Part shown: in pieces, positions 1-59,316 of the stretch
How positions within the stretch are numbered: the stretch's first letter is position 1
Layout: each line of letters opens with the position of its first letter
Source of the DNA: Natrinema amylolyticum
Lineage (GTDB): Archaea; Halobacteriota; Halobacteria; Halobacteriales; Natrialbaceae
DNA: 64,000 nucleotides
Direction of reading: 5' to 3'
Assembly (NCBI RefSeq): GCF_020515625.1
Contig: NZ_JAIWPJ010000001.1
Span: forward strand, 682,001 to 746,000
The notes under the pieces: model-generated
What the model saw: the letters and a program-made list of their open reading frames with translations, nothing else
Databases searched by the model: none
What the model was told of the DNA's origin: nothing
Position numbers and translations under genes: made by a program

Positions 1-1900
1 TCGACTGGGGCGACCAACTGATGAATTCGACCTCGCATTTGACGGCCGCCGAGAGAGCGACGGGAACTGACCGATCGTCTCGAACCGAGAAGGTGAGTTC
101 GGCCACGTCGGTACCGTACCTCGTCGAGCGTCGCTGTGCCGAGTTGATCGCAGATCCGATGGTCTCCCCCAGTTCGGCGAGGATAGTCCGTTCGTCGGAA
201 CCGAACGCATCACGCGTTTCCGCGTACACGATCAGTATATCGTATAGAATATTCTGATACGTAACCGGCACGTACGCGACGGATTTGTACCCGTTTGAAC
301 GGGCATGTTCAATCCGCTTGGTAGGGAGCGAACTCCGTGCTATCTCAGGGATGATAGTGACCTCTTGGTCCGTTATCGCCTGAGCGAGTATCTCGTCGTC
401 CGGGTCTCCTCCGAGCGATATCGTCTCGGTCAGTCCGTCACCGTCTCCGATTCCGGCCCGGGCGGCCGACGTTAGCTGATTCGACTCCGCGCTGTATCGC
501 CCGATCCAGGCGTAGCGGTATCGATCGGCGGCCGCGAATCGCTCACAGACGAGCCGTTCGATATCGTCGCGTGTCGAGACGTGGACGAGCGCTTGGTTGA
601 CGTCACGTATAACTTCGTTAACGTGATTCAACGCCGCGAGTTCGTCGCGCTTGTCTGTGAGCTCCTGCTCACGTTCGCGGAGCAGACGGTCTCGGTCCGC
701 CCGGTCCAGTGCCGCGCCCACGTGGGCGGCGAAGATCCGTGCCAGATTGAGTTCGTACTGATTGAACGCGCACCTCTGGGTCGACCCGATATAGAGCAGT
801 CCGTGGTGTCCCAGTGGCAGTTCGAGTTCGACCGAAAGCGTTCCGGGTGCCTCGTCGCCGTCCCGATACCCGTACTGGCGGCTATTGGCCTCGGCATCAA
901 GGATATCATCGACGCCGAACGCTGCCTCGATCTTGTCGTCGGGCACCGCCGTTCGCGCAGCATCGGTCGCCGCCACCGGGCGTGTCGGCAACGGGTCGGT
1001 CGCTATCTCGTGGCTGATGAGGTAAGCTCTGCTCGCGTCCGCATCGAACAGTTCACTGACAGTCTCAACGGCAGTCTCGCAGACCGCTTCCCGCTCCGTC
1101 ATCGTCATCAGGTCCCGTGCAGTCGAAAGCAATGCGTCGGTGGCGCGCTCGCGGTAGCGGCGGTCCGTAATGTCGTGCGTGATGACGAGCCCCCGCTCGC
1201 GGTCGTCGATCGTAACGCAGCGGACGCGTGCCTCGACCCAGAACGGGTCCCGTCCGTCCAACTCACAGCGCCAGTCAACGACGGTGCTCTCGTCCTGGTT
1301 TCGCGTCCGTAACCATTCAGCGACACCCATTCCATCGGCCGCTGGAACGGTGGCCTGGAGGTCGTCTATCGCGAGGCCCGCTATGTCAGACTGTGCGATT
1401 CCCCAGTGTTCGCAGGCGACGGTATTGGCATCAACTACCTCGCCAGCATCGATGTCGAGGATCATCGCAGCATCGTCGACGGCGTTGAATAGTTCACGGT
1501 AAACAGCGCGGTTTCGCCTGCCGTCGACGACGGTTCTGACCCGATTCGCGAGGAGTTCGCACTGATCCGACCCAGTTACCCGCCGCATACAGTCCGCCGC
1601 CCCTGCTCGAATCGCGTCGGCGGCCACGGATTCCTCCCCCTCGCCGGTGAACAGGATACAGGGGAGGTCCGGGGTCGTTTCTCGCACTGCGTCGAAAAAC
1701 ACCGAACCGTCGCTATCAGTCACCTGACACCCGCTGACGATGCAATCGATCTCGTTCTCATCGAGTCGCTCGAAGCCCTCACGCGCCGACGACGCCTGCA
1801 GAACGTCGATATCAGGGTGGGCCCGTCCGAAATAATCGGCGACGAGCGACGTCGTCTGCGGGTCGTCGACACAGAGGAGCGTGTAGTTCGGTCGTTTCAT
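1..1900 (-). CDS. Partial multidomain sensor/regulator (receiver-PAS-GAF-GAF), C-terminus off the left edge
   Basis: The minus frame opens at ATG 1898-1900 and runs off base 1 without a stop (633 codons). Residues 1-115 resemble a response-regulator receiver (acidic pair D12-D13, ILFTGEG strand), about 125-235 a PAS domain, and about 245-390 and 420-570 two GAF domains. This order is typical of haloarchaeal bacterio-opsin-activator (Bat) regulators, which end in an HTH_10 DNA-binding domain; that end is outside the window, so this is inference. The position expected to hold the phospho-acceptor Asp is Gly57 (IVSGC) and the conserved Lys is Arg (DCMRR), so the receiver is probably not phosphorylated. 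It is divergent from the secretion operon starting at 2023 and shares its 122-bp control region. Confidence 0.85.
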   Translation of the reverse strand, partial: MKRPNYTLLCVDDPQTTSLVADYFGRAHPDIDVLQASSAREGFERLDENEIDCIVSGCQVTDSDGSVFFDAVRETTPDLPCILFTGEGEESVAADAIRAGAADCMRRVTGSDQCELLANRVRTVVDGRRNRAVYRELFNAVDDAAMILDIDAGEVVDANTVACEHWGIAQSDIAGLAIDDLQATVPAADGMGVAEWLRTRNQDESTVVDWRCELDGRDPFWVEARVRCVTIDDRERGLVITHDITDRRYRERATDALLSTARDLMTMTEREAVCETAVETVSELFDADASRAYLISHEIATDPLPTRPVAATDAARTAVPDDKIEAAFGVDDILDAEANSRQYGYRDGDEAPGTLSVELELPLGHHGLLYIGSTQRCAFNQYELNLARIFAAHVGAALDRADRDRLLREREQELTDKRDELAALNHVNEVIRDVNQALVHVSTRDDIERLVCERFAAADRYRYAWIGRYSAESNQLTSAARAGIGDGDGLTETISLGGDPDDEILAQAITDQEVTIIPEIARSSLPTKRIEHARSNGYKSVAYVPVTYQNILYDILIVYAETRDAFGSDERTILAELGETIGSAINSAQRRSTRYGTDVAELTFSVRDDRSVPVALSAAVKCEVEFISWSPQS

Positions 1901-1942
1901 TTCTCGCTGCCGATACATAACATACTTTGACAGTCGTTTCCC

Positions 1943-1992: not shown

Positions 1993-2000
1993 TTATTTTA
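1993..2000 (+). promoter_or_regulatory. TATA box of the four-gene secretion operon
   Basis: TTATTTTA is centred about 26 bases before the ATG at 2023, the spacing of a leaderless haloarchaeal transcript. Confidence 0.55.
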
Positions 2001-2022: not shown

Positions 2023-2547
2023 ATGCAGTTTAGAACTGTAATCGTCGTAGCAGCACTCGTCGTAGCATCGGTCGCCGTCGGTAGTGCCGCGTTCACCAGT
2101 GGTACTGTCGACCGGACGGCAAACGTCAACGTCGTCGGTGACAGCGCCGCAGTGACGGGGCTCGCACCGGGTAGTGCGTCAGCCGTGTATACCGGCACCA
2201 ACGGAGAGTTACAAATTGATTTCAGTAACTACACCAACGCGGAGGGGGTAAACGGCAACGCGACTTACACTATCGGAGATAGCAACGCAGCGAACGAGAC
2301 ATATGCATTCAATGTCACCAACAACGACGATGTCTCGCACGATTACACACTCTCGTACGATTACGATAACAGTGTGCCAACTAACTCGTCCGTCTCCTTC
2401 TCGACGTACGACAATACGGGAGCCGGCCCAACTGATCCGATAACTCTATCGGCAGGCGAAACAGCGTACGTCGTGACCACGGTCAATACCACAGACGCTA
2501 CCAGTGCCAATGACCTCTCTGGGACGCTGAATATCACTGCAACGTAA
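2023..2547 (+). CDS. Secreted beta-rich surface protein (DUF1102/TasA-like candidate)
   Basis: A 174-residue protein. Residues 1-24 form a hydrophobic signal segment ending near GSAAFTSG; the rest is polar, rich in Thr, Asn, Asp and Ser with alternating beta-strand patterning, and has no Cys and no second membrane segment. At least seven N-x-S/T sequons (for example NYT, NAT, NET, NVT, NSS) suggest heavy N-glycosylation. It is the first gene of an operon whose second gene is a SipW-like signal peptidase. In bacteria SipW processes TasA/camelysin fibre subunits, and archaeal bundling pilins are TasA-like. A secreted fibre or matrix subunit is therefore inferred from context plus signal peptide; the family name is not certain. 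Confidence 0.75.
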   Translation: MQFRTVIVVAALVVASVAVGSAAFTSGTVDRTANVNVVGDSAAVTGLAPGSASAVYTGTNGELQIDFSNYTNAEGVNGNATYTIGDSNAANETYAFNVTNNDDVSHDYTLSYDYDNSVPTNSSVSFSTYDNTGAGPTDPITLSAGETAYVVTTVNTTDATSANDLSGTLNITAT

Positions 2548-2559
2548 CGAAGTACCTGA

Positions 2560-3516
2560 ATGAGATACAGGGCTGGCGTCGCGTTGCTCGCCGGTGTGAT
2601 CGCGGTGTCGGCGCTGACACCGCTCGGCGTCAGCTTCGTCTATTCCGACAGTATGGAACCGACAATCGACACCGGCGACGGATTCGTCGTCCTGCCAGCT
2701 AATGACGCCGCCGCCGGTGACGTCGTCACCTTTTATTCGGACGAACGAGACGAATACGTGACCCACCGGGTTGTCGAGGAGACGGAAGTAGGGTACGTCA
2801 CGCAGGGCGACAACAATCAGGAGACGGACCAGGCCGTCGGCTATTCACACGTGTCGCCCGATGACATTGAGGGACGTGTCCTCTCCGTCGGCGAGTCGCC
2901 GCTGACGGCGCCGGCTCTCGGGACGCTCGTCTCCGAATCGTCACAACATAGGGGTATCCTCGTGCTGATCGGCGTCGTCGCCCTGACCGTCAGCATAGGG
3001 TCGAACGGTCGGTCGCGGGACGTCATCAACACTGGCAGCCTATTTCGGCAACTGATTTTGACGAGCATCGCCATCGGCGTCGTCGCGATCGTCATCTCCG
3101 GCAGCACCGTCGGCCTCACCATCACGGAGGCAGCCAGTTCCTCGCCGGAGACGATGACGTTCGAGGACGGCGACCGAACGACGCTCGAGTTCACCAATAC
3201 GCCGACACCCTACACCCATCGTGTCACCTCCGCGTCTGGGCTTCGGATCGTCGATACCATCGTTGCAGAAGAGACGCTGTCGCTTACCGTGGAGCACGTA
3301 GGCGACAGTGAGTCAGCGGCGGTCCAGTTCTACAACTACCCGGCCGTAGTGCCGAAGGGTATCGTGGAGACGCTCCACGGGATCCATCCGCTGCTGGCTG
3401 CCGTCTTCACTGTCGGCGCTGCCCACCTGCCGATCGTCGGGGTGTACTGGCTATTGGTCGACAGTTCCGAACCGGTTCGAACCGCTCGAATACAATTGCC
3501 ACGGAGGTTGCGGTAG
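2560..3516 (+). CDS. Signal peptidase I, SipW/archaeal type (S26B)
   Basis: A 318-residue membrane-anchored serine protease. After an N-terminal membrane segment (residues 5-28) the catalytic serine lies in SDSMEPT (Ser31), the archaeal/ER-type His replacing Lys is in VTHRV (His69), and an Asp follows in TQGDNN (Asp84). The family's core is about 150-190 residues; here a C-terminal extension adds membrane segments near 130-150, 170-190 and 275-300 and an exported beta-rich region between them. It starts 12 bp after the secreted protein gene and abuts the next gene directly (TAG then ATG). It probably cleaves the two secreted neighbours specifically and is not the general Sec peptidase; the substrate assignment is inference. 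Confidence 0.9.
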   Translation: MRYRAGVALLAGVIAVSALTPLGVSFVYSDSMEPTIDTGDGFVVLPANDAAAGDVVTFYSDERDEYVTHRVVEETEVGYVTQGDNNQETDQAVGYSHVSPDDIEGRVLSVGESPLTAPALGTLVSESSQHRGILVLIGVVALTVSIGSNGRSRDVINTGSLFRQLILTSIAIGVVAIVISGSTVGLTITEAASSSPETMTFEDGDRTTLEFTNTPTPYTHRVTSASGLRIVDTIVAEETLSLTVEHVGDSESAAVQFYNYPAVVPKGIVETLHGIHPLLAAVFTVGAAHLPIVGVYWLLVDSSEPVRTARIQLPRRLR

Positions 3517-4035
3517 ATGACCCGTCGCCGTTCCCGCGGACGATCCAGGCGACACTGGCTGCTAGTGGTCGGCATCGTGATTGGTCTGCTGGCCCTGAGC
3601 GGCGTCCCGCCCTCAACGTCGTTCTCGACGGGAGATACCGCCAGGGAGTCGGGGATTACCGTGGTGGACGATCCGTCAGCAGTGCTCGGCATAGATAACC
3701 ACTTGACAATGCAAACCGGCGAGACCTGCAAGCTTGTCGATGTCACGAACAGGTTCGACACAACAGTAACGGTGACGGTGACGTTGCGAACGGACTCAGA
3801 AAAGTATGGGAACCTGACGCTGGGGAATGGACGAGAGGGGAACGAGACGTCGTTCTCGCTCAGAGCTGATTCGACACAGCGAGTCGGTCTTGAGACCAAG
3901 AACGAAAGTACGTACGACGGAGATAATGTGTACTACCACGTGGACGCGACCGCGACGGATCTTGATATTGTCGCGACAGATCGGTATTCGACTATCGACG
4001 ATGACACGACCGGTAGCTGTGATATGACGGTATGA
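3517..4035 (+). CDS. Second secreted beta-rich protein of the SipW operon
   Basis: A 172-residue protein with a very basic N-terminus (RRRSRGRSRR) followed by one hydrophobic segment (about residues 14-30), which fits a Sec signal or anchor. The mature part is Thr/Asp rich, predicted all-beta, with sequons NLT, NET and NES and two cysteines (TCKL and SCDM) that could pair. ATG 3517 follows the peptidase stop without a gap, and its stop overlaps the next start (ATGA at 4032-4035). It resembles the first operon gene in style but not in obvious sequence; likely a minor subunit, chaperone or anchor. No function is assignable from sequence alone. Confidence 0.7.
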   Translation: MTRRRSRGRSRRHWLLVVGIVIGLLALSGVPPSTSFSTGDTARESGITVVDDPSAVLGIDNHLTMQTGETCKLVDVTNRFDTTVTVTVTLRTDSEKYGNLTLGNGREGNETSFSLRADSTQRVGLETKNESTYDGDNVYYHVDATATDLDIVATDRYSTIDDDTTGSCDMTV

Positions 4036-5273
4036 CTCTGGAATGGCTCACGGTCGCTCAACTCCGATATCGTAAATTCGTCGGGGAACGAGACCGTCAG
4101 GTCGTCGCCGTGTCGCTCGTACTCGGTATACTGTTGGCTGGCGGCGGCCTCGCAACGGCTGCGTCGCCACCGACAGAGACCGTCCAACAGCCGACGGACA
4201 CCGTCGTCGTCACAACGACCCAAACGACGGCAGCGACCGTCACCGGGGAGTCGGACATGTACGATCATGGATACGTTGTCCAGAATAGTTCACTCTATCT
4301 AACTGATGCAGCGCCGAACTTCTCCGTCACGGCTCAAGTCAGCACGGCCGACGACCGGCATCTCGCTGTCGACCAGCGGCTCACGCTCGTCTATGAGGCA
4401 CGAGACGGTGACGAGACGTTCTGGCAACGCCAGGAGGTAGTGGCGCAGTCGTCAGATACAGTCAATGAGGGTGGAGCGACGGTTACGGCGACGCTTAACG
4501 CATCCGAGATATTGGTCGAGCAGCAGACGCTCGATGCTGAGACGGGGAGCGGAGCGACGGTACGTGCGATACTCGTCCATTCGGCGTCGTATAGTACAGG
4601 AGAGTACGAAGGAGAATTCACAAACGATGCCGCAATCGGCGTCTCGGATCAAACGTACTCGGTCGGCGACGGAATCGCTAACAGAGCCTCCCATCTCGAG
4701 CAGCAGCGTGTTACGCGGTCAATAGAGTCAGAAATGTACGGTGTTCCACTAATATGGGCGACGTATTCGGTCCCGAAACAGACAGTCTGGTTCGTGCTGG
4801 CAGCCCTCGTCTGCTGGCTTGTCGGTGGCCATGCGATACTCCTGCGGTCCCAGCGGGCCAGTGTCAGCGATATCGAGCGGGAACTCACACATCGTCGGTT
4901 CGATAATTGGATGTCGCAGGCACGGGTTCCGGATGAGATGGTAAGTCGCTGTGTTTCGGTATCTACACTCGCCGACCTCGTCGACCTCGCAATCGATATC
5001 GATAATCGAGTGGTGTACGACCCGAACCGGGAACAGTATATCGTTCTCGCGGACCACATGACGTACATCTATACCCCAGAACCGACGATAGGCGACGTTC
5101 GGGACGACGTTGAGGGGAAAAGCAGCGGCGAAATTAACGGACCTACCGAGGAAAGCGAATTTGAGTGGGCCGAGAAAGAAGCGGAGTTGGATAAAGGGGA
5201 GGAATTCGAATGGACTGACGACGTAGATACGGTCGATAACGAAGACGAGTTCAACTGGAACGATACTGGCTAA
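4032..5273 (+). CDS. Membrane protein, DUF5305-like, with acidic EFEW-repeat tail
   Basis: A 413-residue protein. One membrane segment near residues 27-47, a long extracellular all-beta region (about 60-240), a second membrane segment near 250-272 (VWFVLAALVCWLVGGHAILL), then a cytoplasmic region. The last 50 residues are strongly acidic and repeat a short motif (SEFEW, EEFEW, DEFNW). DUF5305-type proteins are commonly encoded beside SipW-like peptidases in haloarchaea, which supports a role as assembly or anchoring partner; the mechanism is not known. It overlaps the previous gene by 4 bp, so translation is probably coupled. Confidence 0.75.
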   Translation: MTLEWLTVAQLRYRKFVGERDRQVVAVSLVLGILLAGGGLATAASPPTETVQQPTDTVVVTTTQTTAATVTGESDMYDHGYVVQNSSLYLTDAAPNFSVTAQVSTADDRHLAVDQRLTLVYEARDGDETFWQRQEVVAQSSDTVNEGGATVTATLNASEILVEQQTLDAETGSGATVRAILVHSASYSTGEYEGEFTNDAAIGVSDQTYSVGDGIANRASHLEQQRVTRSIESEMYGVPLIWATYSVPKQTVWFVLAALVCWLVGGHAILLRSQRASVSDIERELTHRRFDNWMSQARVPDEMVSRCVSVSTLADLVDLAIDIDNRVVYDPNREQYIVLADHMTYIYTPEPTIGDVRDDVEGKSSGEINGPTEESEFEWAEKEAELDKGEEFEWTDDVDTVDNEDEFNWNDTG

Positions 5274-10670: not shown

Positions 10671-12626
10671 ATGGGGAATACTATCGGTCGCTCTCTGGAG
10701 CCCGGGGGGAAATCCAGAGCGGAAGCGGAGCTACTCGGCGTCGTCTTACTCATCGCGTTGGTCATCGTCGGCGCAGCGAGCGTCTTCATCGTCGGCGGTA
10801 CTGCGTTGGGTCAACTAGAGGGGTCCAGTCAGGACGAGGCCGCATCGCAATCGCTCGTGAACGCGAAAGCCGAAATGAGTGCGCTGCAGACCGGTGACGT
10901 CAGCGAAATCTCGCTGAGCGAATCGGTGAGAGCGAACACTCGAGTCGAGTCTCAGTCGGGTAATTTCACGATACGAACGGCGGACGGCGAGGAATACAAT
11001 ACGACCTTCGGCTCGATCGTCTACGAACGCGACGGGAATCACATCGCCTATCAGGGCGGTGGCGTCTGGGAGTTACACGACAATACCTCGACGGTGGTGA
11101 GTAACCCTCAGTTCGACAACCGAGGCGGCGGCAACGAGACGGTCTCGTTGCACTTCGCTGCAACCAGTCTGCAGGGAGCGGAGCGGTCCGGATCCGACCT
11201 GACGATCCGCTCGAAGGGAACGAACGAGTCACTGCAAGACCTCCCACAGACGTTACCCGAAGGCCCCACGACGATCGAGATCGAATCCGAGTACTACGAG
11301 GCGTGGGGGAAACTGCTCGAGGAGCGGACAGAGATGGACGTCGAGTACGATCACGGCGCGGAGACGGTCACCGGCACGCTCACCGTTTCCGACGAGGTAA
11401 CGATCGAAAACGCGTTGACGGTCGACGGCGAGTTGGACGCGAGCGGTGGCATCTCCGTCTCGAGTTACGACTCAAACGGTGCGACGGTGCCGGCATGGGA
11501 GGGGGTCGGTGACGGGAGTTACCAGGAAACGGGTAACGGCGACCTCGTCGTGACCGACAGAATACGGCAAGGCGGAAGTGCTGATATTAGCGGCGATATA
11601 TACGTCGCCGACGATTTCTCGATCAGTGGGGGTGCAAACGTTGACGGGAACATTACCGCGACGGGAGACGTTGATATCGGAAGTGCTACCGTTACTGAGC
11701 GGATCGTTTCCGACGGCGATGTCTCCGTTACGAGCGGCGGTGCGTCGTTCGAAGACGGAAGTGAGGTGAACGTCGCGAACGGCTTCACGAATACGGGAGG
11801 GGGCAACAGCTTCGACGGAGTTATTCGCGCCGGTAATCGGCTCGAGATTGGCGGGGGCGGAGCGGGAGTCGGCGAAACCGGTGTCGTTCATGCACAGGAT
11901 ATCGTCGACATATCTAATGAACATCCTGCGGCCGAAACGTACGAAGGAGACGACGCGGACGCGCCGTCGCTGGACGAACTGGACGTGATTACGGAGCGAA
12001 CCGACTCGATGCCCGATCCGAGAGACGAGGTAGCGACCGCCGTCACGCAGTACGAAGACACTAACGATAACGACGATCTCGGAGCTATCGGTGGAGGGAA
12101 TGCCGATGATACGATTCGGGCTGGAAACTACTATATCGATGGCAATTTAGAATACAGTGGAAACTCCGAACTGACGTTCGATACGAACGACGGGGACATC
12201 GACCTCGTCGTCGATGGCGACATCGATGCACAGAACGTGGATTCGAATATCGAAGGAGACGGAATAGTCAATATCTACGTCAACGGAACGTTCGAGACAG
12301 GGGGCAGCGCATCGTGGACGAACGACGACGGTGCCGGCGATCGCCTCTGGATATACACCGCCGATTCCGGCGGGGAAACGTACATTCAAGCGTCTGGAGG
12401 GGACTTCTACGGCGTGATTTTCTCCGCGTCGGAAGTCAGACTGGGCGGTGGAACGAACGTCTACGGGGCAATCATCACCGAGGGCAGCGATATTTCCGGT
12501 GGGCAGAGTATCTACTACGACGAGGCAATTCAAGACACCGATCTCGGAGGTATCGAGAACGAGGGCGTGTTCGATACCGCCTATATCGACATCTCGGCTA
12601 CCGAATTGACCGTCGACGATCAATAA
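10671..12626 (+). CDS. Pilin-like surface protein with repetitive beta region (DUF7289/DUF7305-like)
   Basis: A 651-residue protein. The N-terminus has a short basic leader (PGGKSRAEAELLG) followed by one hydrophobic helix (about residues 24-45), the arrangement of archaeal type IV pilin-like and DUF7289 proteins. Residues 50-230 form a globular exported part. Residues 235-600 contain many short Gly/Ser/Val/Asp repeats (VDGELDASGG, GSADISGDIYVADD, GNGDLVVTDRI) that look like a right-handed beta-solenoid or bactofilin-like fold, as in polymer-forming adhesins. It stands alone, with no pilus motor genes nearby. A cell-surface structural or adhesion role is inference. Confidence 0.72.
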   Translation: MGNTIGRSLEPGGKSRAEAELLGVVLLIALVIVGAASVFIVGGTALGQLEGSSQDEAASQSLVNAKAEMSALQTGDVSEISLSESVRANTRVESQSGNFTIRTADGEEYNTTFGSIVYERDGNHIAYQGGGVWELHDNTSTVVSNPQFDNRGGGNETVSLHFAATSLQGAERSGSDLTIRSKGTNESLQDLPQTLPEGPTTIEIESEYYEAWGKLLEERTEMDVEYDHGAETVTGTLTVSDEVTIENALTVDGELDASGGISVSSYDSNGATVPAWEGVGDGSYQETGNGDLVVTDRIRQGGSADISGDIYVADDFSISGGANVDGNITATGDVDIGSATVTERIVSDGDVSVTSGGASFEDGSEVNVANGFTNTGGGNSFDGVIRAGNRLEIGGGGAGVGETGVVHAQDIVDISNEHPAAETYEGDDADAPSLDELDVITERTDSMPDPRDEVATAVTQYEDTNDNDDLGAIGGGNADDTIRAGNYYIDGNLEYSGNSELTFDTNDGDIDLVVDGDIDAQNVDSNIEGDGIVNIYVNGTFETGGSASWTNDDGAGDRLWIYTADSGGETYIQASGGDFYGVIFSASEVRLGGGTNVYGAIITEGSDISGGQSIYYDEAIQDTDLGGIENEGVFDTAYIDISATELTVDDQ

Positions 12627-51828: not shown

Positions 51829-53685
51829 TCAGACGACGAGAAGCCACAGGACTACCGTCAGGACGAGCGTCAGCAGCAGGACGGTCGTCCCGATGCCGGT
51901 CCGGAGGTGGATCGTCGACGGACGACCGCCGTCGGTCGGCTGGCGTTCGTCGACGTCGACCAGCCAATCGGGCAACTGCCCCGCCGCCGCGTCGACGGCG
52001 AGGACGGGGTTGTTCCCGACCCAGTAACAGCGTTTGACCGCGCCGACGACGGCCCGGTCGACGGCGGCGTAGGTCTCGGTGACGCCCAGCATCGTCCAGC
52101 GACTGACGGCGTAGGTCGCGGGATAGACGACCATCGTCGGATCGCCGAGATCGAGCTTCGAGAGCGGCTTCCGGACGAGGACGAAGGTGACGGCCGCGAC
52201 GCCCGTCAGGATCCCCGCCGTCTGGAGGTGGCTCGAACTGTAGGGGTGGAGTTCGCTCTCACCGCTGGGGTACGCGAACTCGAAATGGCCCCCGTGACCG
52301 TGGAGCGTCGGCGCGAGATCGGCCAACCCCTGCCACCAGACGCCGAAGAGGAGACAGGCGCCGCCGAGTCCGAGCATCGCGACGGTCTGGCCGGGCTTCG
52401 CGTCCGCGACCTCGAACTCGCTCTCGCCGTGGAAGAAGACGTAGTAACCGAGCTTGATGAACGACAGGAGGGTCCCGATCGCACCGAGCCAGAGCAGCCA
52501 GTACAGCGCCTGGAACTCCGGATCGCCGTAATAGTGGGGGTCGGCCGCGTCGAAGAGCATCCCCTTGCTCACGTAGCCGTTGAATCCCGGAATCGCGGTG
52601 ATCGAGAGGGCCCCGAGCCCGAACGCGATCGCGGTCAGTGGCATCTCTCGCCAGAGCCCGCCGAGCTCGTACAGGTCCTCCTCGCCGGTGCGGTAGATGA
52701 CGACGCCGACGGCCATGAACAGCAGGCTCTTGAACAGGATGTTGTTGAACAGGTGGCTCAGCGCGCCTGCAACGGCGATTTCGCTCGTTACCGTCCAGGC
52801 TCCCATCCCGATCCCGGCAACGATGTACCCGAGCTGGGCCTGGATGTGGTAGGACAGCAGCGCCCGCATGTCGTGTTGCAACAGGGCGAAGGTCGCGCCG
52901 TAGACGGCCATCAGGCCGCCCATGTACGCGATGTAGATTCCCAGGTCGCTCTGGGCGTCGACGGGGAACGCCCGGTAGAGGACGAACGCGCTCGTCTTGG
53001 TCGTATAGACCGAGAGGAACACCGAGGCGGCGATGTGGGGCCGCGGGTAGGTGTCGGGCAGCCACGTGTGGAACCCGATGAAGGCGACGTTGACGCCCAT
53101 CCCGAGCACCGCGAGCAGCGCCGGGATCCCGTTGGCGATGCCCGTGTCACTGTAGACGAACGTCCCGACCTCGACGTAGTGGGCGGCGACCGCCATCATC
53201 ACGAGCACGCCGCCGGTGCCGTGGAACAGCGCGTACCGGAAGCCCGCCCGGACCGCCTCGCCGCCGTAGTGCCAGACTACCAGCGTGCTCGTTACCGCCA
53301 TCAGCTCCCACATGAACAGGAGGACGAGCCAGTCGCCGGCGAAGGCCGCACCGATCGACGAGGAGACGTAGACCAGCGCAAATGCGACCAGCGTCTCGCT
53401 CGCCTCGCTCGAGTAGGCATAGATGACGCTACAGATGCCTAAAAACCCGAGTCCGAGCCCGACCATTCGGGAGAAGTCGTCGACGTAGAACGGGACGACC
53501 TCGAAGCCGAGGAAGGTCCCGCCCAGATGCTCACCGCCGGGCGCGACCAGCGAAATCGCCAGCACTGCCGCGAGGCTGAGCGCACCGACGGCGAAGCCGG
53601 CGATTCGGGGCAGGACGAGCACGAGCAGTGCCGCCGCGAAGACGATGAGCGGCGGGTAGGCCATCGACAGGAGTTCGACTGCCAT
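51829..53685 (-). CDS. mnhD: Mrp/Mnh antiporter subunit D-like (NuoL/MrpD-type), last gene of operon
   Basis: A 618-residue membrane protein with about 14-16 helices. It belongs to the proton-conducting quinone-oxidoreductase-like family (FALLQHDMRALLSYHIQAQL, and LFNNILFKSLLFMAVG). Key Lys and Glu are kept (LLFMWELMAV). A His-rich loop (LHGHGGHFEFAYP) lies near 470. It is one of three D-type subunits here. Its ATG overlaps the previous stop (TGATG). Confidence 0.9.
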   Translation of the reverse strand: MAVELLSMAYPPLIVFAAALLVLVLPRIAGFAVGALSLAAVLAISLVAPGGEHLGGTFLGFEVVPFYVDDFSRMVGLGLGFLGICSVIYAYSSEASETLVAFALVYVSSSIGAAFAGDWLVLLFMWELMAVTSTLVVWHYGGEAVRAGFRYALFHGTGGVLVMMAVAAHYVEVGTFVYSDTGIANGIPALLAVLGMGVNVAFIGFHTWLPDTYPRPHIAASVFLSVYTTKTSAFVLYRAFPVDAQSDLGIYIAYMGGLMAVYGATFALLQHDMRALLSYHIQAQLGYIVAGIGMGAWTVTSEIAVAGALSHLFNNILFKSLLFMAVGVVIYRTGEEDLYELGGLWREMPLTAIAFGLGALSITAIPGFNGYVSKGMLFDAADPHYYGDPEFQALYWLLWLGAIGTLLSFIKLGYYVFFHGESEFEVADAKPGQTVAMLGLGGACLLFGVWWQGLADLAPTLHGHGGHFEFAYPSGESELHPYSSSHLQTAGILTGVAAVTFVLVRKPLSKLDLGDPTMVVYPATYAVSRWTMLGVTETYAAVDRAVVGAVKRCYWVGNNPVLAVDAAAGQLPDWLVDVDERQPTDGGRPSTIHLRTGIGTTVLLLTLVLTVVLWLLVV

Positions 53686-55613
53686 CAGTTATTCACCTCC
53701 GAGATGAGCTGTTCGAACGGAACGTCGGTCAGATCTTCGAAGGGCATCCCGAAGACGCCCTCGACGATCCGCATGGCTAACTCGAGGAAGACCGCGTAGT
53801 CGGGGCCGACCCCGAGGACGACCGCGCCGGTCGCGATCACGGCGATCGGCGCGAGCATGAGCCATGTGCTCTCGGCGAACGGCGAGCGGCGTTGCCAGCC
53901 GCTGGCCGGCGGCCCGCCGGTCAGGTGGTCGTCGTGGTCGCCGTGGTGGTCGACGCTGCTGACGTGATCCTCGGACGCCGCAGTGTCGACGGAGTCGGGA
54001 ATCGTGTGATCGCTGGGGTTCTGGTCGACGGCGTACTCGAACGATTCGTCGGACGCGGGCTCCGCGTCCGAAGCGTCTGCCCTTTCGGTGGGGTCGGTCG
54101 GTTCCCCGCCGTCCGCGGCCACGTGCTCGTCGTCGGACTCGTCGGAGGCGTAAGACCGGATAACGCCGCCCCGCGGGAACTCGAGGACGGGTTTGGCGTC
54201 GTGGCGGTCCTCGCTCTCGAAGAAGGCGGTGTAGACGACCGGCCAGAGGTAGCCGATGTTGAGCACGGCCGAGAGCAACAGCGCGGCGGCGAACAGCCAG
54301 TAGCCGCCGCCGACGTCACCGGCACCGATCAGCATGTAGAACTTGCTGACGAAGCCGGCGATCGGCGGGAGGCCGGCCATGCCGGCCGCGCCGACGGTGA
54401 AGGCGGTCATCGTCAGCGGCATCCGCTTGCCGATACCGGCCATCTCGCTGATGTAGTCGGTGTGGGTCTCGACGTGGATCGCACCCGCACAGAAGAACAG
54501 CGTGAGCTTCGCGAACGCGTGGGCGGGGATGTGGAACAGCGCTCCGACCATCGCGTAGGGGTGCAACATCGATAGTCCCAGCACGATGTAAGAAAGCTGG
54601 GCCGTCGTCGAGTACGCGAGCCGTCGCTTGAGGTGGTCTTTCCGCATCGCGATGATGCTCGCCGCGATCAGCGTGAACGCGGCGACGATGGCGACGGGGA
54701 TGTTCAATCCGACGTCACCGATGCCGGGTACGGAAAGCGGTAGGTCGTGGATCAGTCCGGGGCCGTAGACCTCGAGAATGACGCGAGCGATGCCGAACGC
54801 GCCGGACTTGACGACGGCCACGGCGTGAAGCAGGCCGGAGACGGGCGTCGGCGCGACCATCGCGTCGGCGAGCCAGGAGTGAAGCGGCATCAGCGCGGCC
54901 TTGACGCCGAAACCGGCGATGAGCAGGAAGAAGGCGGCCTGTGCGTAGACCGGCTCGACCTGTGCGGCCGCGGCCAGCGCTTCCATGCCGCCCGCCTCGA
55001 AGGCGAGCGTCGGTCCGCCCTCGACCAGTCCCGTTAGCCAGTAGACGATGGCCGTCCCGGCGAGCAGGAAGACACCGCCGCCGAAGAACGTGTAGGTGAG
55101 ATACTTCCGACCGGCGATCCGCGCCTCGGTGTCCTCGTTGTGGGCGACCAACGGATACGTCACCAGCGAGAGGAGTTCGTAGAAGACGAAGATCGTCACC
55201 AGGTTCGCCGCGAACGCGATCCCGACGGCAGTCGAGAGGCTGGCCGCGAAGGAGGCGAAAAAGCGGGTCTGGGCGTGCTCGTCGAGCCCGCGCATGTAGC
55301 CGGTGGCGTAAAAGGACGTGAAGATCCAGAGGAAACTCGCCAGCAAGGCGAAGAAGATCCCCAGCGGATCCGCTCGCAGCGCGAAGTCGACGCCCTCGAG
55401 GAACCGGATGCCCGTGCTCTCGTAGAGGCTCCACCGGAAGACGGTGCCGTTCATGACCGCGGGGAGCATGCTGACGACGATGCCGAACTTCGCGAGGGCG
55501 GCCAGCACGGACCAGCCCTCGCGGAGGTTCGGTCGGCGATGCGACGCGACGATCAGGACGATGGCGACCGCCGACACCAACACGGCGGCGAGCGGGCGGA
55601 GATCTGCGACCAT
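53685..55613 (-). CDS. mnhD: Mrp/Mnh antiporter subunit D with acidic cytoplasmic insert
   Basis: A 642-residue protein. The core (VFYELLSLVTYPLVAHN, MPLHSWLADAMVAPTPVSGL, KRRLAYSTTAQLSYIVLG) is a standard MnhD. Between the last core helix (about 480) and the final one (about 595) lies an insert of about 100 residues rich in Asp, Glu and Ser and ending in a His cluster (VDHHGDHDDH). This insert could bind cations or act as a sensor; that is inference. ATG 55613 overlaps the upstream TAA. Confidence 0.9.
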   Translation of the reverse strand: MVADLRPLAAVLVSAVAIVLIVASHRRPNLREGWSVLAALAKFGIVVSMLPAVMNGTVFRWSLYESTGIRFLEGVDFALRADPLGIFFALLASFLWIFTSFYATGYMRGLDEHAQTRFFASFAASLSTAVGIAFAANLVTIFVFYELLSLVTYPLVAHNEDTEARIAGRKYLTYTFFGGGVFLLAGTAIVYWLTGLVEGGPTLAFEAGGMEALAAAAQVEPVYAQAAFFLLIAGFGVKAALMPLHSWLADAMVAPTPVSGLLHAVAVVKSGAFGIARVILEVYGPGLIHDLPLSVPGIGDVGLNIPVAIVAAFTLIAASIIAMRKDHLKRRLAYSTTAQLSYIVLGLSMLHPYAMVGALFHIPAHAFAKLTLFFCAGAIHVETHTDYISEMAGIGKRMPLTMTAFTVGAAGMAGLPPIAGFVSKFYMLIGAGDVGGGYWLFAAALLLSAVLNIGYLWPVVYTAFFESEDRHDAKPVLEFPRGGVIRSYASDESDDEHVAADGGEPTDPTERADASDAEPASDESFEYAVDQNPSDHTIPDSVDTAASEDHVSSVDHHGDHDDHLTGGPPASGWQRRSPFAESTWLMLAPIAVIATGAVVLGVGPDYAVFLELAMRIVEGVFGMPFEDLTDVPFEQLISEVNN

Positions 55614-57211
55614 TAGTTAATCACCTCAGTGAGGAACGGATCGAGCAGTTCGGCGATCGTTCCCCCCGCGAAGCCGAGGGCAACGGCGCCGAGCGCGGCG
55701 ACGACGACGATCGCGACCATGCCGGTCGAGACGGGGTCCCGGGAACTCTCGCCGCGGATGGCGGCGATAGCGGCTCCGGGCTCGCGGGACGCGGAGTCGG
55801 CGTCTCCGGACCCGTCGCGTCCGTCGTCACCGCCGTCCGTCGCGACCGGATCCGGCGCGTGTGGCCGGTCGGCCGCCGCGGACGGCGTGAAGTACATCTT
55901 CTCGAGCAGGCGGGCGGCGTAGGCGAGGGTGAGCATGGTACTGAGGAAGATCACGGCCGCGACGGGCCAGAGTTGGGCCTGGACGGCTCCGAGTCCGATG
56001 TACCACTTGCCGACGAAGCCGACCCCGGGCGGGACGCCGACCAGCGAGAACAGGAGGACGGCCATGGAGCCGGCGACGACCGGCCGCTCCGTGGCGAGTC
56101 CGGCGTACTCGTCGACGGTGCGAGCGCCGTAGCTCGCCGCGACGAGCGCGACGCCGAGGAAGAGGCCGGCCTTCAGGAGGCCGTGGCCGACGAGGTGGAT
56201 CGCGGCCCCGATCAGCGCCGTCCGCGAGCCGTCGGCGATGACGACCCCGTAGGCGGCGATGACCAGCCCGAACTGCGAGACTGACGAGTACGCGAGCATG
56301 CGCTTGACCTCGGTCTGGATCACGGCGAGGACCGTGCCGGCGAGGACGCTCACGCAGCCGACGGTGAGGACGATGGCGGCCGCGTTCGGCATCGCGGCGA
56401 GATACTCGACCTCGAAGACGGTGACGATCAGCCGGCCAAAGGCGTACGCGGAGGCGGTCGAAACCAGCGCCGCGATCAGCGGCGTCACCCCGTCGGGGGC
56501 CTGCTGGTAGGCGCTCGGCTGCCAGGTGTGCAGGGGCCACTGGGCGACCTTGACGGCGAAGCCGACGACGATGAACGCGAAGCCGGCGCGGATCAGCGTC
56601 TGGGCCTCCGCCGCCGGAATCGCCGTCGAAAGCTCGACCATGTTGAGCGTCCCGGTCGCCATGAAGACGAACGCGACGCCGATCAGATACATCGACGCGG
56701 CGACGGTCCCCAGGATCAGGTACTTCAGGGAGGCGACCGCTGCCTCCGGGCCGTCGCCACTGGCGACCAGTGCGTATGTCGCGAGGCTCGTGATCTCGAG
56801 GAAGACGAACAGGTTGAAGACGTCGCCGGTCAGCGAGATGCCGAGCAGGCCGCCGACCAGCAGGAGGTAGGCGGTGTAGAACGTGTTCCCGCGCGGACCG
56901 CCCTGTCGCGTGTACGCGAGGACACCGAGGGCGACGGCAGTCACGAGCAGGACGATCAGCATCGAGAACTGATCGGAAACGAGCTGGATGCCGTACGTGC
57001 GGGGGTAGCCGCCGAGTTCGTGGGTTACGGCCTCGCCGCCGGCGTAGACCTCGGCGGCGAGATAGCTGGCCGCACCGAACAGGCCGAGCGTCGTGAGCGC
57101 GGTGACGGACCAGCCCGTTCGGTCGAACCAGAGACCCAGCGCGATCGGGAGCGTCGCGGCGAGGATCGGGGTGACGATCAGCAACGGCAGGATCAGATCG
57201 ACGTTACTCAT
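55613..57211 (-). CDS. mnhD: Mrp/Mnh antiporter subunit D (first copy)
   Basis: A 532-residue protein. It contains FVFLEITSLATYALVAS, VAQWPLHTWQPSAYQQAPDG and KRMLAYSSVSQFGLVIAAYG, diagnostic of MnhD. A short charged loop near 450-480 precedes the last helix. ATG 57211 overlaps the mnhC stop by 8 bp; a GTG at 57217 is possible. Confidence 0.92.
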   Translation of the reverse strand: MSNVDLILPLLIVTPILAATLPIALGLWFDRTGWSVTALTTLGLFGAASYLAAEVYAGGEAVTHELGGYPRTYGIQLVSDQFSMLIVLLVTAVALGVLAYTRQGGPRGNTFYTAYLLLVGGLLGISLTGDVFNLFVFLEITSLATYALVASGDGPEAAVASLKYLILGTVAASMYLIGVAFVFMATGTLNMVELSTAIPAAEAQTLIRAGFAFIVVGFAVKVAQWPLHTWQPSAYQQAPDGVTPLIAALVSTASAYAFGRLIVTVFEVEYLAAMPNAAAIVLTVGCVSVLAGTVLAVIQTEVKRMLAYSSVSQFGLVIAAYGVVIADGSRTALIGAAIHLVGHGLLKAGLFLGVALVAASYGARTVDEYAGLATERPVVAGSMAVLLFSLVGVPPGVGFVGKWYIGLGAVQAQLWPVAAVIFLSTMLTLAYAARLLEKMYFTPSAAADRPHAPDPVATDGGDDGRDGSGDADSASREPGAAIAAIRGESSRDPVSTGMVAIVVVAALGAVALGFAGGTIAELLDPFLTEVIN

Positions 57212-57581
57212 CGGCACGCACCTCCCTAAGGGTGTCCTCGCGGAGCGTCCCGTACTCCGCGTAGATGCGGATGATCAGCGCCAGTCCGACGGCCGTCAGT
57301 GCGATGCCGACGACGATGGCGGTCAGCACGATGACCTGAGGCAGCGGGCTCGCGACCATGACCTCCCCAGGCTCGCCGTGGTGGGGGACGATCGGCGCCG
57401 ACGCGCCGTCGGCGTCGATGTAGGCCATCGAGACGAAGAACAGGAAGATGGCCGTCTGGAAGAGGTTCACCCCGATCAGCTTCTTCACGAGGTTCTCGCT
57501 GGCGATCACCATGTAGATCCCGAGTCCCAGCAGGACGAAGGTGAGCACGTACGTGTAGTGGCTCGTCAGGAGATCAATCAT
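57204..57581 (-). CDS. mnhC: Mrp/Mnh antiporter subunit C (NuoK-like)
   Basis: A 125-residue protein with three membrane helices. Signatures: LGLGIYMVIASENLVKKLIG, LPQVIVLTAIVVGIALTAVG. It overlaps mnhB by 8 bp. Confidence 0.95.
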   Translation of the reverse strand: MIDLLTSHYTYVLTFVLLGLGIYMVIASENLVKKLIGVNLFQTAIFLFFVSMAYIDADGASAPIVPHHGEPGEVMVASPLPQVIVLTAIVVGIALTAVGLALIIRIYAEYGTLREDTLREVRADE

Positions 57582-58110
57582 CGTCGCTCACCTCCGCATC
57601 GGGCGAGCCGGGAGCCTCGGCGGCGCTGTCGGTTCCGCTGACACCGCCGGTCCCGCTCGGCCGCTCGGGCGTAAAGCCCGCGGCCATCGTGAAGAAGAGG
57701 CTGATGATGACTCCCGAGACGATCAGCGAGATACCGCCGATCTCGACGGCCTCGAGCCCCCACTTCTGTTTGACGTGGAGGACCTCGTAGAGCTGATCGA
57801 ACTCGAGGAATTTTCCCCCCAGCGCGATCATCCCGAGGCCGATGGCCCCGAAGATGACGACGCCGCCGGTGACGATGCCGACGAGGAAGGAGTTCCTGAG
57901 CCATCGCCGGGTCGGTTCGATGCCGAACGCGAAGGCGAGCATGAGGACGGTGACGCCGACGATGGTCCCCCCCTGGAAGCCGCCACCGGGGGCGTCGCCC
58001 CCGTGGAAGGTCATGAACAGCCCGTACGTGAGCGTAAACGGTGCGATGATCTTGACGGCGGTCATGATCACCTGACTCTCGGTGTAGGTATCGTCGACAG
58101 ATCCGGACAT
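57574..58110 (-). CDS. mnhB: Mrp/Mnh antiporter subunit B
   Basis: A 178-residue protein with four helices and the family motif FHGGDAPGGGFQGGTIVG near residue 37. The final 35 residues are a polar acidic tail. Its start overlaps the DUF4040 stop by one base (TAATG). Confidence 0.95.
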   Translation of the reverse strand: MSGSVDDTYTESQVIMTAVKIIAPFTLTYGLFMTFHGGDAPGGGFQGGTIVGVTVLMLAFAFGIEPTRRWLRNSFLVGIVTGGVVIFGAIGLGMIALGGKFLEFDQLYEVLHVKQKWGLEAVEIGGISLIVSGVIISLFFTMAAGFTPERPSGTGGVSGTDSAAEAPGSPDAEVSDDD

Positions 58111-58649
58111 TAGGCGAACACCTCGCGTTTCAGGACGAGCAGGGTCGAGACGCCGGCGGCGAAGACGACGACCGCCTCGCCGAAGGTGTCGAACCCACGG
58201 TATGCGGCGAGTACGGACGTAACAGCGTTCTCGACCTTTGTTTGCTCGTACGTCTGCGTGATGTAGTGCTGGGTCACGTCAGGGTTCGACCAGACCGGCG
58301 TCTCCGTGCCGCCGACTGCGTACATCTCGGGCAGGACGGCGGTACAGAGCAGGAGCACGAACGCACCGACGACGACGACCGCCGGGAGGTGGATTCGCTC
58401 CCTGAGCCGGTCGGTCGAGGGCCGCGTCGTGCGCGCGATCGTCAGCAACAGTAGGAGCGTCGTGACGCCGGCACCGATCGCGGCCTCGGTCATCGCCACG
58501 TCGGGAGCCAGCAGGAACGTGTAGAGGATCGCCATCCCGAGGCTGTAGGCTCCGAAGACGATGATCACCGACAGGATGTCCCGGAACAGCGTCGTCGCGA
58601 CGGCCGTCGCGAGGACGAACGCCACGAGGGTATAGGCGAACAGACTCAT
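58110..58649 (-). CDS. Mrp antiporter subunit, DUF4040 (MrpA C-terminal/MbhD-like)
   Basis: A 179-residue protein equal to the C-terminal part of bacterial MrpA: LFRDILSVIIVFGAYSLGMA, then FLLAPDVAMTEAAIGAGVTT, then a second part (AAYRGFDTFGEAVVVFAAG) corresponding to MbhE. Archaeal Mrp systems encode this separately. It overlaps mnhG by 4 bp. Confidence 0.92.
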   Translation of the reverse strand: MSLFAYTLVAFVLATAVATTLFRDILSVIIVFGAYSLGMAILYTFLLAPDVAMTEAAIGAGVTTLLLLLTIARTTRPSTDRLRERIHLPAVVVVGAFVLLLCTAVLPEMYAVGGTETPVWSNPDVTQHYITQTYEQTKVENAVTSVLAAYRGFDTFGEAVVVFAAGVSTLLVLKREVFA

Positions 58650-59038
58650 CGCGTCTCACCGTCCGTTTCGGCGGGGATGTCGGTTTCGTCCGTCTCCGGC
58701 CCCTCCTCGGCGAGCACGGGTTCGACGCCCGTCTCCGCGGCGGAGCGCGCGATCGCGTGGGCGGCCGTCGGATTCGTGATGAACACGAAGAACAGCAGTA
58801 AGACGGTGTAGACCGCCGCGTGCTGCCAGCCGAAGGCCAGGGCGACGCCGGCGAGTGCGAAGCCCGCCCCGAGCGTGTCCGTCTGGGACGCGGTGTGTGC
58901 TCGCGCGTAGATGTCCGGGAGGCGGATAACGCCGACCGTCGAGACGAGCGTGAAGAACACGCCGAGTCCCAGCATGACGACGATCGCCCAGAACCGGACC
59001 GTCTCGAGCGTCGTCTGCAGCGGGATCGGTTCGATCAC
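58646..59038 (-). CDS. mnhG: Mrp/Mnh antiporter subunit G
   Basis: A 130-residue protein from GTG 59038. Three helices with STVGVIRLPDIYARAHTASQ and TDTLGAGFALAG, diagnostic of MnhG; the tail is acidic. The GTG overlaps the mnhF stop (GTGA), which decides the start. Confidence 0.93.
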   Translation of the reverse strand: MIEPIPLQTTLETVRFWAIVVMLGLGVFFTLVSTVGVIRLPDIYARAHTASQTDTLGAGFALAGVALAFGWQHAAVYTVLLLFFVFITNPTAAHAIARSAAETGVEPVLAEEGPETDETDIPAETDGETR

Positions 59039-59316
59039 AGCACACCACCCCGTTCGACGGTGAACTTCGAGATGGCGATCGACATCAGGAAGTTCAGCAG
59101 GGCGTAGATGAGCGCCACGTCGAGGAACCACGCCTGATCGAGCCCCGCAGCTAACAGGGCGAGGATGACGACCGTGTTGGTCCCCAGTACGTTGACCGCC
59201 AGCAGCCGGTCCTGCGTCGTCGGCCCGACAACGGCGCGATAGAACATCGCGATCGCGAGGACGACGAACAGCGCCGCCGCGACGAGAAAGACGTCCTCGA
59301 GCGAGGACGGCGTCAC
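59035..59316 (-). CDS. mnhF: Mrp/Mnh antiporter subunit F
   Basis: A 93-residue protein with three helices (VVGPTTQDRLLAVNVLGTN is diagnostic). Starts with GTG overlapping the mnhE stop. Confidence 0.93.
   Translation of the reverse strand: MTPSSLEDVFLVAAALFVVLAIAMFYRAVVGPTTQDRLLAVNVLGTNTVVILALLAAGLDQAWFLDVALIYALLNFLMSIAISKFTVERGGVL

Follow-up and report, generated by a model that had tools for sequence, protein, structure and literature searches.

A compact Taf-type operon of Natrinema amylolyticum that probably encodes a donor-strand pilus

RESULTS

A four-gene operon conserved among haloarchaea

What do four tightly packed genes that include a SipW-like signal peptidase make in Natrinema amylolyticum? 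An earlier note, made from the sequence, had proposed a fibre or matrix related to TasA and camelysin. We analysed these genes within a 64,000-nucleotide stretch of contig NZ_JAIWPJ010000001.1 (positions 682,001 to 746,000; here called the window). Four co-oriented open reading frames (ORFs) occupy 2023-2547, 2560-3516, 3517-4035 and 4032-5273 of the plus strand. Their spacings, read from the ends, are +12, 0 and -4 bp, which bears out the tight packing described in the note. The proposed composition also holds: a secreted beta protein, a signal peptidase, a second secreted protein and a membrane protein with two helices. We regard all four ORFs as real genes because the same order occurs in 12 other distinct loci (13 in total, duplicate contigs removed), with 25-64% protein identity where the proteins could be aligned. 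The hosts of this order include Haloferax mucosum, Halomarina rubra, Halomarina oriensis and a Halorientalis metagenome-assembled genome. In a tree of the DUF5305 protein encoded by gene 4, the 13 four-gene rows required two label changes, compared to a mean of 7.2 after shuffling, and the window grouped with loci L055, L075 and L076 (98/94).

Gene 1 resembles the pilin of a Natrinema pilus

Gene 1 (2023..2547, plus strand) encodes a secreted, pilin-like subunit of 174 aa. The protein had no significant family match in Pfam or NCBIfam, its sequence alone matched no PDB chain in a phmmer search, and a Foldseek search with its model returned no match with an E value below 0.001. A profile of the gene 1 family was more informative. 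Among PDB chains, it clearly matched one, 9p0a_C (E = 1.6e-13), when all rows were used; two of these rows were paralogues close to 9p0a. When the profile was limited to compact-type rows, 9p0a still ranked first (E = 2e-4). This entry is entitled "Structure of Natrinema sp. J7-2 Tafi pilus," and the fibre type was solved in Natrinema in 2025. VIA-align of the predicted gene 1 structure also placed 9p0a first (Z 8.6, 3.1 Å, 120 residues aligned), although 7ptb, an unrelated Ig-like domain, reached Z 8.5, so that rank by structure cannot decide the matter by itself. The next pili were 7ueg (Z 8.0) and then the thread 7pnb (Z 6.8). In the comparison of predicted structures that the earlier note had called for, the Tafi pilin thus led and the bundling pilin 7ueg came next among pili, at Z scores close to those of unrelated Ig-like domains; TasA was missing among the matches listed, which excludes nothing.

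The mature form of gene 1 probably begins at A23 (AFTSG...), with a predicted cut between GSA and AFTSG. Mature residues 1-20 (AFTSGTVDRTANVNVVGDSA; 2089..2148, plus strand) are more conserved than any other 20-residue segment of the protein (0.573 versus 0.367; rank 1 of 133), and A1, R9 and D18 are invariant across 31 aligned sequences. The same residues are poorly ordered in the monomer model, with pLDDT values of 46-59 (blocks of 46 and 59); pLDDT for the mature model is 86.8. On the basis of conservation, low pLDDT and invariant residues, we predict that this segment is a donor strand. The remainder was modelled as an Ig sandwich without its last strand. On the MSP domain 1z9l, gene 1 spans residues 4-93 and gene 3 spans residues 0-125; hence, gene 1 appears to lack the last strand and gene 3 to possess it. 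In the model, a missing last strand together with an N-terminus that is disordered yet strongly conserved is the signature of donor-strand polymerisation. In TasA and in the archaeal thread, each subunit has its fold completed by the N-terminal strand of a neighbour (PMC9674648, PMC9715654). Gene 1 is thus predicted to be the main fibre subunit, carrying an N-terminal donor strand.

Glycosylation provided no further clue. The earlier note had correctly counted seven N-X-S/T sequons in gene 1, but shuffled mature sequences averaged 4.8 (p = 0.18), and we dropped sequon enrichment as a signal.

Gene 2 encodes a SipW-like signal peptidase

Gene 2 (2560..3516, plus strand) encodes a SipW-like Ser-His signal peptidase I of 318 aa. 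It passes the archaeal signal peptidase I model TIGR02228 (70.5 bits; cut-off, 51.85), and its PDB profile matches are SEC11A/SEC11C. S31 and H69 are invariant in 12 aligned sequences. Its conserved membrane/extracytoplasmic extension at the C-terminus, which had been singled out as unusual, is instead a family trait, present in all 12 aligned sequences from four-gene loci.

Is gene 1 a plausible substrate? Every one of the 31 aligned gene 1 sequences has Ala at P1' and Phe, Tyr or Leu at P2', a pattern consistent with SipW-type cleavage sites. Bacterial LepB cleaves poorly at sites with an aromatic P2' residue; in TasA, SipW processes such a site.

Gene 3 may cap the fibre

Gene 3 (3517..4035, plus strand) encodes a second secreted subunit of 172 aa that resembles the N-terminal part of TafC. 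The match to the NCBIfam TafC model is weak (29.1 bits, E = 5.2e-7; cut-off, 410). Comparison with hhalign shows homology between the families of gene 1 and gene 3 (97.5%, E = 6e-12). The gene 3 model (pLDDT 86.2) shows a complete Ig/PapD-like fold with a pilin-like N-terminus and matches PapD/MSP-type Ig domains with VIA Z scores of 9-10. Because gene 3 shares its N-terminus with gene 1 while its modelled fold is complete, we tentatively assign it as a cap or terminator; topology is the sole basis of this assignment, and PapD/MSP-like folds are common.

Two cysteines, one in TCKLV/TCRLV and one near the C-terminus, occur in gene 3 and in its L055, L075 and L076 homologues and are kept in the clade of the window. 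The pair possibly forms a disulfide that holds the C-terminal end in place.

Gene 4 is a DUF5305 protein that travels with SipW-like peptidases

Gene 4 (4032..5273, plus strand) encodes a DUF5305 membrane protein of 413 aa, matching PF17231 over its full length (E = 3.3e-30; 105.6 bits versus a gathering threshold of 29). Two hydrophobic helices, near residues 24-42 and 252-270, enclose an ectodomain and are followed by a cytoplasmic tail. DUF5305 matched no solved structure in our search and is unnamed in the literature searched. Profile comparison revealed no similarity of the gene 2 extension or the DUF5305 ectodomain to gene 3, or of the two to each other.

We asked how often DUF5305 keeps company with a SipW-like peptidase. 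Such a peptidase lay on the same fetched stretch in 39 of the 41 named loci that had a DUF5305 alignment. With six signal-peptidase-like matches across the 4.7 Mb of the host, we estimate that a 13-kb stretch would contain one by chance in about 2% of cases. Gene 4 is probably a membrane anchor or an assembly partner or platform.

The operon is probably a compact relative of Taf loci

NCBIfam defines four Taf fimbrial families, TafA, TafC, TafE and TafF. The scores of the operon proteins against them are all below the cut-offs; for gene 1 they are 13.9 against 155 for TafE and 12.6 against 190 for TafA. We found no account of the Taf system in the literature searched, so our evidence for the Taf link is the PDB title and the NCBIfam models. 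In locus L132, TafA, TafC, TafE and TafF all pass their cut-offs. DUF5305, SipW-like and small HTH genes lie among or beside the Taf genes in L126-L128, L131 and L132, and the SipW-like and DUF5305 pair of our operon is found in Taf loci L126-L132.

The operon thus shares with the Taf pilus a pilin family with the same N-terminal motif, a SipW-like peptidase, a DUF5305 neighbour and a TafC-like second secreted protein. It differs in having only four genes, with one pilin; TafF and the HTH gene are absent between 1918 and 5402. Its TafC-like protein is also shorter, at 172 aa compared to about 370-430 aa, and it has its own receiver/BAT regulator.

Two further DUF5305-SipW loci were seen in the host. 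L010 (with L019), at about 1832900-1842800 of C1, encodes TafE/TafA-like and TafF-like proteins, and L011, at about 142500-147300 of C2, encodes TafE-like and TafC-like proteins; all of these score below the cut-offs. The host may therefore make several fibres of Taf-like type. Elsewhere in the window, a 651-aa ORF at 10671-12626 (plus strand) begins with a type IV pilin-like signal (KSRAEAELLGVVLLIALVIVGAA). Tightly packed membrane-protein genes at 51829-59316 (minus strand) look, from their ORFs, like an Mrp-type sodium/proton antiporter operon.

A divergent regulator and a variable chromosomal site

The interval 2023-5273 proposed in the earlier note captured the operon but left out a divergent regulator, which accompanies the operon in 6 of the 13 four-gene loci (L014, L055, L075, L076, L060 and L061), including four of four in the clade of the window. 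Only one match, a partial one, was found in 44 other loci. The regulator (1..1918, minus strand; 824 aa, cut by the window start) has the Pfam domain order receiver-PAS-GAF-GAF-BAT-HTH_10 and probably controls expression of the operon. By inspection, we found a candidate archaeal TATA box, TTATTTTA (1993..2000, plus strand), about 26 bp upstream of the ATG of gene 1, which suggests a leaderless gene 1 transcript. A bacterial promoter scan, a method unsuited to archaea, found nothing.

Between purF and a mutS-like gene (C1 681088-687435; to 5402 in the window), the regulator and operon stand out as an insert of low GC content, at 0.60 and 0.58 compared to 0.67 and 0.71 in the flanks. From purF to the mutS-like gene is 6.3 kb here versus about 0.3 kb in genomes G007 and G335. 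G399 (L133), the closest congener by the mutS-like gene, has a different, decayed Taf-type module at this site, with DUF5305 split over two frames. These observations suggest that pilus modules have been gained and lost at the purF/mutS-like site, which is possibly an exchange site for them, and the operon was probably acquired horizontally. The site is near empty in several congeners (L136 is that of G007) and is occupied in G184 and G249 by an ORF of about 1,030 aa.

DISCUSSION

We conclude, with a probability of roughly 0.8, that this operon is a compact donor-strand pilus operon of the Taf type. The earlier note had suggested a new surface system; most likely, the fibre type is one already known in Natrinema, with the solved Tafi pilus 9p0a as its closest structure, and the operon is a slimmed-down version with its own control gene.

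How might such a pilus be assembled? Gene 1 would be exported by Sec and then cut by gene 2 at the GSA-AFTSG junction, freeing the N-terminal strand. The freed strand would occupy the groove of the following gene 1 subunit, open where the last strand is missing, and repeated donor-strand complementation of this kind would polymerise the subunits into a thin fibre. Gene 3 could donate a strand but, with its closed fold, could not accept one, which would place it at one end as a cap, terminator or base. Gene 4 would probably anchor or organise the assembly at the membrane, and the divergent receiver/BAT regulator would probably control expression. We also considered a stronger claim, that pilin, groove-less terminator, dedicated signal peptidase and DUF5305 suffice for a minimal donor-strand pilus. 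Cleavage of the signal peptide would by itself free the donor strand, and the peptidase and DUF5305 would form, with their extracytoplasmic domains, an assembly platform that replaces chaperone and usher. We hold this to be conceivable but doubtful.

Perhaps the pilus serves recognition? In this variant, the filament encoded at an exchange site for Taf modules would mediate cell-cell recognition, gene 1 conferring specificity and not bulk adhesion. The decayed, different module in G399, the nearly empty site in several congeners and the three SipW-DUF5305 loci kept by the host speak for it. However, no partner or receptor gene was found, and simple gain and loss explain the island equally well. 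We consider this variant unlikely.

Less probable still is a non-filamentous surface layer or shed matrix, in which gene 4 would tether gene 1, a secreted Ig-like protein, to the membrane and the likeness to Taf would be confined to the signal and anchor region. Conservation among gene 1, gene 3 and Taf proteins is indeed strongest in the signal peptide and the first 40 residues, and Ig folds are common. However, the gene 1 profile matches 9p0a across positions 1-154, well beyond the N-terminus, and the conserved segment is the strand-exchange segment of related fibres (PMC9674648, PMC9715654). 

Two archaeal donor-strand fibres are more distant comparators. The AbpA bundling pili of Pyrobaculum calidifontis (7ueg) align with the predicted fold of gene 1 over 118 residues, at a Z score similar to those of unrelated Ig-like rows, and use the donor-strand principle predicted here; they differ in their distant archaeal lineage and in having only 9% identity to gene 1. 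The Sulfolobus thread (Saci_0406; 7pnb) is likewise a donor-strand fibre and, as predicted for gene 3, has a companion subunit without an acceptor site (cap candidate, Saci_0405), but it is 7% identical to gene 1, and its cap is not predicted to be Sec secreted (PMC9715654).

A biofilm matrix fibre belonging to the true bacterial TasA family is very improbable: a dedicated peptidase of the ER type, an aromatic P2' cleavage site and a donor-strand architecture, here only predicted, speak for kinship with the Bacillus system (PMC9674648, PMC10269814), but the TasA/camelysin profile PF12389, which matched in the B. subtilis control, found nothing in the whole genome, gene 2 falls far under the equivalog cut-off of the Bacillus SipW model NF046067 (50.6 versus 190 bits), the Bacillus TapA-SipW-TasA operon of three genes has no DUF5305 counterpart, and the pilus matches found were 9p0a and 7ueg. 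The best reading is thus still a SipW-like peptidase that serves a fibre-forming substrate of its own, as the earlier note had it, with the Taf pilus in place of TasA/camelysin as the nearest relative.

As a probable compact Taf-type pilus operon, this locus narrows archaeal donor-strand pilus assembly without chaperone or usher to four genes conserved across haloarchaeal families, and it gives each of them a clear prediction, including that of a terminator subunit. It suggests a role for DUF5305, a family with relatives of gene 4 in 164 of the 243 sampled genomes of the order, and it marks a chromosomal site at which pilus modules seem to have been gained and lost.
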